Assembly (NCBI GenBank): GCA_025201705.1
Contig: MU617036.1
Location: forward strand, 1-25,939
DNA: 25,939 nucleotides
Direction: 5' to 3'
Source of the DNA: Dissophora ornata
Lineage: Eukaryota; Mortierellomycota; Mortierellomycetes; Mortierellales; Mortierellaceae
This document shows, piece by piece, positions 25,340 to 25,939 of the stretch (positions are counted from its first letter, which is position 1; each line of letters starts with the position of its first letter). The position numbers were made by a program, and so were the translations under genes. The notes under the pieces were generated by a model that saw only the letters and a list, made by a program, of their open reading frames with translations, was not told the DNA's origin and searched no databases.

Positions 25340-25938
25340 CTAATCTGCTATGAATGAATCTACATGCACTCGCTTGGGGATACGAGTTTCCGTCTCTGTC
25401 ATGGGAGCTGTTCGCTTTCGTCCGCCAGCTAGTCCTTGTTCCATCGTGGCAACCCTCTCTGTATGCGAGTTTGAAGCCTGCATCCAGGGGTAATTCCCTT
25501 TGGCATCCACCGGCTGGAGATATTTCGGTCGCTGCTGGTGAAGCAGATGGCCGCGAACGACGTTGCAGATATTATGTCCAGCCATAACGTCGCGATGCAT
25601 GTATGTCTTGCACTTCTTGCAATACAGTCTGCGGATCTCGACCTGCCCGACAAACTCTTCGCATGTTGGGCACTTTTTCGACGTGTAATACTCGTTCACT
25701 CCCACGACAATGTAGCCAAGCGCTCTTGCCTGTATAATCGTAAAGGAAGCTGGGCTGCATTAGCGTTGTCTAAAAAGAAGGAATAGAAGGAATAAAGCAA
25801 TACTTGAAGACTTCATACTCTCACCTTTTGAACGAAGTATGACTGAAAGGATTCATGCAGCGAAGAAAGCCTGCTCTTCGAAGAAAACTGTCCAAGGCCA
25901 ATCCCAATGACAACCTTGTTGGCTTCATCCCTCTTTCT
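25340..25938 (-). CDS. Fanzor/TnpB-type RNA-guided nuclease homologue, C-terminal part (5' end outside window)
   Basis: Two exons are visible: 25938-25825 (38 codons, entering from the right edge) and 25729-25340 (129 codons plus TAG), joined in phase 0 with donor AAG|GTGAGA and acceptor ATACAG. The visible 167 residues match the RuvC/zinc-ribbon end of the OrfB/TnpB superfamily: VVIGIGLGQFSS, a helix, ALGYIVVGVNEYYTSKKCPTC, the second zinc pair YCKKC, then HRDVMAGHNICNVV, which corresponds to the RuvC-III D-R-D-x-x-A-x-x-N motif. Eukaryotic members of this superfamily are Fanzor proteins, guided by an omega RNA to cut DNA. A PKYLQPVDAKGNYPWM segment and a basic, nuclear-signal-like tail (GGRKRTAP, RIPKRVHV) follow. 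The presence of an intron fits a nuclear fungal copy. Whether the whole nuclease is intact cannot be judged, since the N-terminal domain and RuvC-I lie outside. Confidence 0.85.
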
Positions 25939-25939
25939 G

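Follow-up and report, generated by a model that had tools for sequence, protein, structure and literature searches.

The 3′ end of a spliced Fanzor1 gene in Dissophora ornata and its probable family of double nucleases

Why transposons keep Fanzor genes is an open question; one proposal is that guided cutting and repair let the element persist. The right edge of a 25,939-nucleotide (nt) stretch of Dissophora ornata DNA (the window) brings this question to a particular locus, where a sequence-only reading had placed a spliced gene for a Fanzor-like RNA-guided nuclease. We asked what kind of Fanzor this gene encodes and which partner domains and RNA signals accompany its family. Our analysis indicates that the window probably carries the terminal, 3′ part of a Fanzor1 gene that belongs to a transposon; in its family, many full-length members would be double nucleases that combine a FEN1/XPG-type domain with Fanzor1. 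The window spans contig C474 in full (1–25939), one of 968 contigs in a genome of 31.4 Mb. Because the contig ends at 25939, the Fanzor gene is incomplete, and no contig continuing C474 was found, as judged from match lists only.

The Fanzor1 gene at the edge of the window

The visible part of the gene is the Fanzor1 C-terminus, the last 167 residues, encoded on the minus strand at 25340–25938; RuvC-I and all upstream parts lie beyond the contig end. Its features are as follows.

25825–25938, minus strand: partial Fanzor exon, the RuvC region ahead of the zinc ribbon (...VVIGIGLGQFSSKSRLSSLHESFQSYFVQK), truncated on its 5′ side where the contig stops
25730–25824, minus strand: intron of 95 nt, phase 0 (GTGAG...ACAG), with consensus splice sites
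25343–25729, minus strand: last exon, with the TNB zinc ribbon (Pfam PF07282), RuvC-III and the basic tail
25691–25693, minus strand: codon for Ealt, the displaced RuvC-II glutamate, which lies in NEYYTSKKCPTC six residues ahead of the first CxxC
25589–25591, minus strand: codon of the RuvC-III aspartate (HRD)
25340–25342, minus strand: stop codon, the end of the Fanzor gene

The CPTC and CKKC pairs and the HRDVMAGHN stretch named in the sequence-only reading are encoded within the last exon as it had proposed, and the basic tail that it noted is rich in K and R. The frame that it described as open across an in-phase intron is free of stops and frameshifts throughout the 167 residues. The intron itself is real; the positions given for the splice (25729 and 25825) are the flanking exon bases and had to be moved inward by one base on each side. 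The AG acceptor was found at the same place (before A/V-R-S/A-L-G-Y) in all seven modelled paralogues, and the GT donor was located in six of them. Of the residues encoded by the upstream exon, RKRDEANKVVIGIGLGQFSSKSRLSSLHESFQSYFVQK, 36 share 81% identity with the Mortierella Fanzor P0001.

The last exon matched PF07282 (Cas12f1-like_TNB) with an E value of 1.8e-12 (47.7 bits; cut-off, 26.3) and, in a genome-wide search, with 8.9e-12; with such values the TNB match is not due to chance. Assignment to another zinc-ribbon family was rejected, as the C1 and DUF2089 matches were far weaker than TNB and fell below their own cut-offs. Fanzors follow a rule by which the displaced RuvC-II Glu stands six residues ahead of the first CxxC (PMC10711439). 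The window reads NEYYTSKKC with Glu at this position, and E is kept in 33 of 36 homologues, a set picked by length, which favours fusions; the RuvC-III Asp is present in 36 of 36. The Fanzor1 end motif, [TS]-[TS]-x-x-C4 zinc finger-x-RD, was found as TSKKCPTC...CKKC...HRD, and all visible catalytic and zinc residues of the window copy are kept. Together with the predicted model of a homologue, which superposes on the solved Spizellomyces Fanzor and thereby points to a Fanzor1 fold, these features bear out the Fanzor-like identity proposed earlier. A spliced Fanzor1 gene at the right edge of the window is supported; taken alone, the window copy is a truncated ordinary Fanzor1 member. Bacterial contamination was rejected, because the gene is spliced, adjoins a histone H2B gene and is one of 59 TNB matches in the genome.

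These 59 matches, 54 of which, the window's included, exceeded the cut-off, come from contigs some of which may be duplicates of one another. With a 413-residue query for the Fanzor core, 118 matches were obtained in a search that scored 101 of 136 candidates. Many core and TNB matches are short or contain stops. Stop-free cores of approximately 410 residues were present in C21, C298, C295 and C141, and models built with a simple splice rule gave an open three-exon Fanzor part in L012 (840 aa), L016 (949 aa) and L011 (843 aa, with a short tail) and stops in L009 and L024. The copies nearest to the window by DNA were C787, C349, C741 and C686 (85–89% identity). C787, the closest (89%), is 5′-truncated and frame-broken, and the window's subfamily is therefore at least partly decayed; C686 has stops inside its TNB match, and C349 gave no TNB match in the PF07282 genome search. 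The best-scoring named relatives of the window gene are proteins of Mortierellaceae genera, and the viral contigs searched yielded no relatives. As a separate observation, the 3′ part of the open Fanzor in C21 is tandemly duplicated (L012 4230–4963 and 5625–6359) at 95.5% identity, in a manner that resembles one-ended copying.

A FEN1/XPG-type domain in long relatives

Many long Fanzor relatives appear to begin with an N-terminal FEN1/XPG-type 5′ nuclease, which is followed by a complete Fanzor1. A weak match in the aphelid protein P0117 hints that this domain predates the Mortierellaceae. The N-terminal domain of these relatives has the seven FEN1/XPG active-site acids and the corresponding fold, and at least five FEN1-type acids occur in the same protein in 29 of the 36 picked homologues. 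For FEN1, the residue numbering and the catalytic sites are assumed here; at the position that we take to be FEN1 E160, 29 of the 36 have Asp. In the Fanzor part, the catalytic Asp of RuvC-I is present in all 36, and the TDG motif of the WED domain is well kept (T in 34, D in 30 and G in 35 of 36). The FEN1-like and Fanzor parts share a history, and the spacing between them is constant in this genome. Among 38 merged XPG loci, compared with all 118 core matches, a Fanzor core lay 0.7–3 kb downstream in 13 and closer in 2. When the XPG part of P0001 was used as a query, 8 proteins were returned, and profile A5 returned 12, under names of Mortierellaceae genera. A literal FEN1–Fanzor fusion protein is likely to exist in the family. 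An annotated USP7-like protein of Lunasporangiospora selenospora (P0119) opens with a Fanzor zinc-ribbon exon, probably because a gene model has joined the end of a Fanzor to the gene behind it; the window's genome has two USP7-like loci (C43 and C47). The matches of P0119 in this genome were limited to pieces of 50–95% identity, mostly below 80%, at two loci, and L. selenospora was rejected as its source.

The relatives with the FEN1-type domain are mostly 1100–1470 aa and, in this genome, spliced, whereas SpuFz1 of the Spizellomyces punctatus element Spu-1 is a 633-aa protein encoded by one ORF (PMC3627910). Unlike in the FEN1/EXO1/XPG (Rad2) 5′ nucleases, the domain here is probably joined to an RNA-guided nuclease. 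The extra piece of Parasitella parasitica PpFz1 is of another kind, a cyclophilin-binding RuvC insertion and not an N-terminal nuclease (PMC11423790). The phrase "Fanzor flap endonuclease homologs (Fendons)", used once for two viral contigs, joins both names with no domain description in the passage concerned (PMC11071296). The words XPG, fused and fusion are absent from the main text of the paper on the Mucorales MuDR-type Fanzor1 elements (PMC3627910). In the main texts of the Fanzor papers searched, XPG and fusion were likewise absent, as was FEN1 where it was sought, and literature searches that paired Fanzor with XPG, or Mortierella with either Fanzor or TnpB, returned no paper. The FEN1–Fanzor combination was not found in the Fanzor literature searched, a scope outside which the 2023 Science Advances survey lies.

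The right-end hairpin module and ghost elements

The features between the stop codon and the neighbouring gene are as follows.

25197–25337, minus strand: segment 98.6% identical to C888:91-232; the point where the two part, at 25197–25199, marks the presumed right end of the element
25292–25308, minus strand: small hairpin, GTGTGT-CGCAA-ACACAC, 3′ of the stop, with variants in other Fanzor subfamilies
25199–25278, minus strand: long terminal hairpin that reaches up to the element boundary, with a fold energy of −34.5 kcal/mol and a z of −5.2
24661–25062, minus strand: histone H2B gene (Pfam Histone, E 1.3e-23)

C888 is a contig with no listed TNB match. Since it diverges from the window at 25197–25199, we placed the right end of the element at approximately 25199. 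This is 136 bases before the ATG of H2B, on the same strand, and the H2B upstream region is therefore now transposon sequence; a TATA-like TATTTAAAA box at 25180–25188 lies about 10 bp past the element end.

In divergent Fanzor copies, the stop is likewise followed by the small hairpin and, tens of bases later, by a motif near TTCGGTGACGTAATTNTCGCGCCCATTGTCCT. This 32-base pattern occurred at 72 genome sites with at most 3 mismatches (29 exact), and the reversed control at none. Of the 40 sites that were fetched, 26 continued after the pattern with CGTTTC and unrelated sequence beyond it, and 4 with GGAAT. Folding of the terminal 80 nt gave a long hairpin, with z < −2 in 32 of 44 folded copies, many of which are close relatives and not independent (4 of 48 were left out as too near a contig start). 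Among the 52 substitutions that six divergent copies have in the 3′ arm, 39 paired with the 5′ arm of the same copy, compared with 20 of 52 on the 5′ arm of L041; for the window these values were 8 of 9 and 0 of 9. With 18 other copies as its basis, a covariance model recovered the window module with an E value of 1.3e-6 and also matched L009, L010, L011, L012, L014, L016, L018, L020, L021, L033 and L036 (E up to 0.04); the match in L024 was weaker and misplaced. The structure-aware RNA model outscored a sequence-only model for the window (34.2 versus 25.9 bits) and for L033, L036, L010, L012, L016 and L011. No Rfam family reached its threshold for the module, with one match below it. In ghost Spu-1 elements of Spizellomyces, a 75-nt right-end scaffold and 14–15 nt of the flank form the guide RNA (PMC10432273). 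By analogy, we regard the small and long hairpins as a candidate guide-RNA scaffold, whose guide may be the flanking sequence, which for the window copy is the H2B promoter. A plain host promoter element was rejected as the identity of the right-end motif, which has a sharp boundary and is joined to Fanzor 3′ ends and to ghosts. Two further arrangements were seen: in L036 (C686:8095-8126 and 8141-8290), an inverted right-end motif and a truncated Fanzor exon of the window type are some 15 bp apart at a rearranged junction, and in L014 and L071 the TTCGGTGACG hairpin unit is tandemly repeated just before the element end.

Most right ends have no Fanzor zinc ribbon nearby: a TNB match lay within 1.2 kb on the same strand in 8 of 72 and on the opposite strand in 1 of 72, and, counted from the other side, 8 of the 59 TNB matches have the motif within 1.2 kb on their strand. 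Several of the Fanzor-less right ends belong to a repeat of approximately 780–850 bp with a common start (six of seven measured; C829, 499), and the five ghost repeats printed contain a TATA box and splice-like signals. These ghosts resemble the ghost Spu-1 elements (PMC10432273). Flanking repeats, scored with no shuffle control, were exact in C465 (10/10, directly after CGTTTC) and close in C25 (9/10) and C786 (8/9); in the other four of the 7 ghosts with both ends scored (of 13) they were weak or absent, by the same uncontrolled scoring. The left end of C465 and of C60b repeats the right end in inverted form, which was not seen in the other five scored ghosts; the left end of the window's own element lies off the contig. 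The elements here may share with the Mucorales Fanzor1 elements ROr-4, PBl-3 and MCi-4 (PMC3627910), also from early-diverging fungi, the lack of a transposase of their own and flanking repeats of 9–10 bp; in contrast to these MuDR-type elements, inverted repeats were found here at only two 5′ ends. The MULE transposase profile PF10551 gave 7 genome matches, 4 of them over the cut-off. A match below it, at C292:22665-22802 (plus strand), lies 2.7 kb past a Fanzor zinc ribbon and might represent a partner transposase.

A mechanism consistent with this organization can be proposed. The Fanzor gene would be transcribed and spliced, and the right end of the element would give rise to an RNA with the small and long hairpins as its scaffold and the host sequence just past the boundary as its guide; for the window copy this guide would come from the H2B promoter. 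The Fanzor half of a fusion translated as one protein would then cut matching DNA that lacks the element, and the FEN1-like half could trim 5′ flaps or gaps where the cut was made or at the element ends, so that repair copying or keeping of the element would be favoured. Ghosts with a similar right end and no protein could supply guides in trans. The fuller version, in which Mortierella-type double-nuclease Fanzors copy themselves into empty sites and dozens of ghosts serve as separate guide-RNA genes with flanking host sequence as guides, is tentative and in our view somewhat unlikely. If the proposal is true, a flap nuclease joined to a guided nuclease would tie Fanzor directly to end processing and repair, the question of Fanzor retention would become testable by single-residue knock-outs in either half, and genome engineering would gain a naturally occurring case in which a guided nuclease is coupled to a 5′ nuclease. 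We consider that the family adds a double-nuclease variant worth a bench test.

Competing explanations and neighbouring genes

Several points weigh against a double-nuclease Fanzor1 family at this locus, besides the choice of homologues by length. The window copy ends before RuvC-I, with neither a FEN1 domain nor a full active site visible, and the 5′-truncated C787 has no XPG match upstream. A Fanzor core is missing at 22 of the 38 XPG loci and lies only on the opposite strand at one, and 7 of the 36 homologues have four or fewer FEN1-type acids. The fusion rests on gene predictions made by others and on colinearity, and one element might instead yield two proteins. A PDB profile search listed no Fanzor chain, which leaves the structural link to the fold comparison; a PDB search with the single sequence L012 gave no match. 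At RuvC-I, the motif DPG, which is reported to be almost specific to Fanzors and is a signature outside the 2013 motif definition, occurred in none of the 36 homologues, which instead of the DPG of SpuFz1 have DLG (24), DGG (8), DAG (3) or DMG (1); in this genome, only L021 of nine copies read has DPG. Judged from motif, TDG and predicted fold, the window's family is a Fanzor1 core and, at DPG, a divergent variant; searches with a DPG signature would miss a Fanzor branch with such a deviating RuvC-I motif. The window gene might, alternatively, be an ordinary Fanzor1 in a MuDR-like transposon, with the FEN1-like domain residing in other subfamilies or in a separate gene of the element. MuDR-type elements with Fanzor1 and 9-bp target site duplications are described from Rhizopus, Phycomyces and Mucor (PMC3627910), and the three ghosts here with flanking repeats of 10/10, 9/10 and 8/9 fit this explanation, as do the lack of a visible XPG part in the window copy (cut by the contig end) and in C787 and the TNB proteins with no XPG match in Umbelopsis (P0085) and Synchytrium (P0110). 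The retention of at least five FEN1-type acids within single proteins, the shared history of the two parts and their constant spacing argue against it, and we regard it as quite unlikely. That the window copy is a dead fragment, a 5′-truncated or rearranged relic kept by chance beside H2B and yielding neither RNA nor protein, is doubtful, though to be taken seriously given the many short or interrupted TNB and core matches, the broken C787 and C686 and the TNB-less C349. Against this stand the uninterrupted 167 residues, the consensus splice sites and the intact visible catalytic and zinc residues; a dN/dS of 0.14 between the window and L012 points the same way but mirrors the lineage rather than this copy, and five other comparisons were saturated at synonymous sites.

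The right-end hairpin could also be a DNA structure or promoter block, that is, a palindromic transposon end whose TGACGTAA site is reused as a promoter, for example by H2B. The module does contain TGACGTAA, some copies lie shortly before coding starts (a proteasome subunit, Pam17 and H2B), C16 and C263 match only the last 43–59 bases of the right end, and an inverted repeat in DNA would yield the same compensatory changes. An RNA scaffold is further called into question by the window's own motif, which is more than 3 bases off the 72-copy motif and not among the 72 sites, and by the L041 grafts, which in 4 of 6 cases gave a fold energy no worse than the copy's own, in a comparison that left out three copies with indels. 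Moreover, the sequence-only model scored higher for L018, L009, L014, L020 and L021, and sequence conservation therefore carries part of the module signal. On the other side, the position fits the Spizellomyces guide RNA, whose scaffold lies between the stop codon and the right inverted repeat (PMC10432273), the module of approximately 110 nt falls within the 75–150 nt of Fanzor1 guide RNAs (PMC11423790), and proximity of right ends to genes was not established. We consider the promoter block unlikely and favour the candidate guide-RNA scaffold, within a Fanzor1 family that probably includes many double nucleases.

With Pfam searches on the flank ORFs, neither an orientation bias nor gene proximity of the right ends was established: a Pfam match was found in 2 of 10 sense and 1 of 10 antisense ORFs from 40 flanks, the antisense ORFs being the ten longest and the sense ORFs hand-picked from the longest 20, a choice that leans towards sense. 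A hexamer coding score placed most flanks within the shuffled range, H2B being a clear exception. Among the 3′ flanks L041–L080, some right ends lie shortly before same-strand coding starts, namely those of Pam17 and a proteasome subunit. Farther from the element, the window has a long ORF on the minus strand (21309–23087) with a repeated TQVMTVEQ stretch; it also contains PTEVWHQILSFLPLSQVARISMVSMAW, which we take to be F-box-like.
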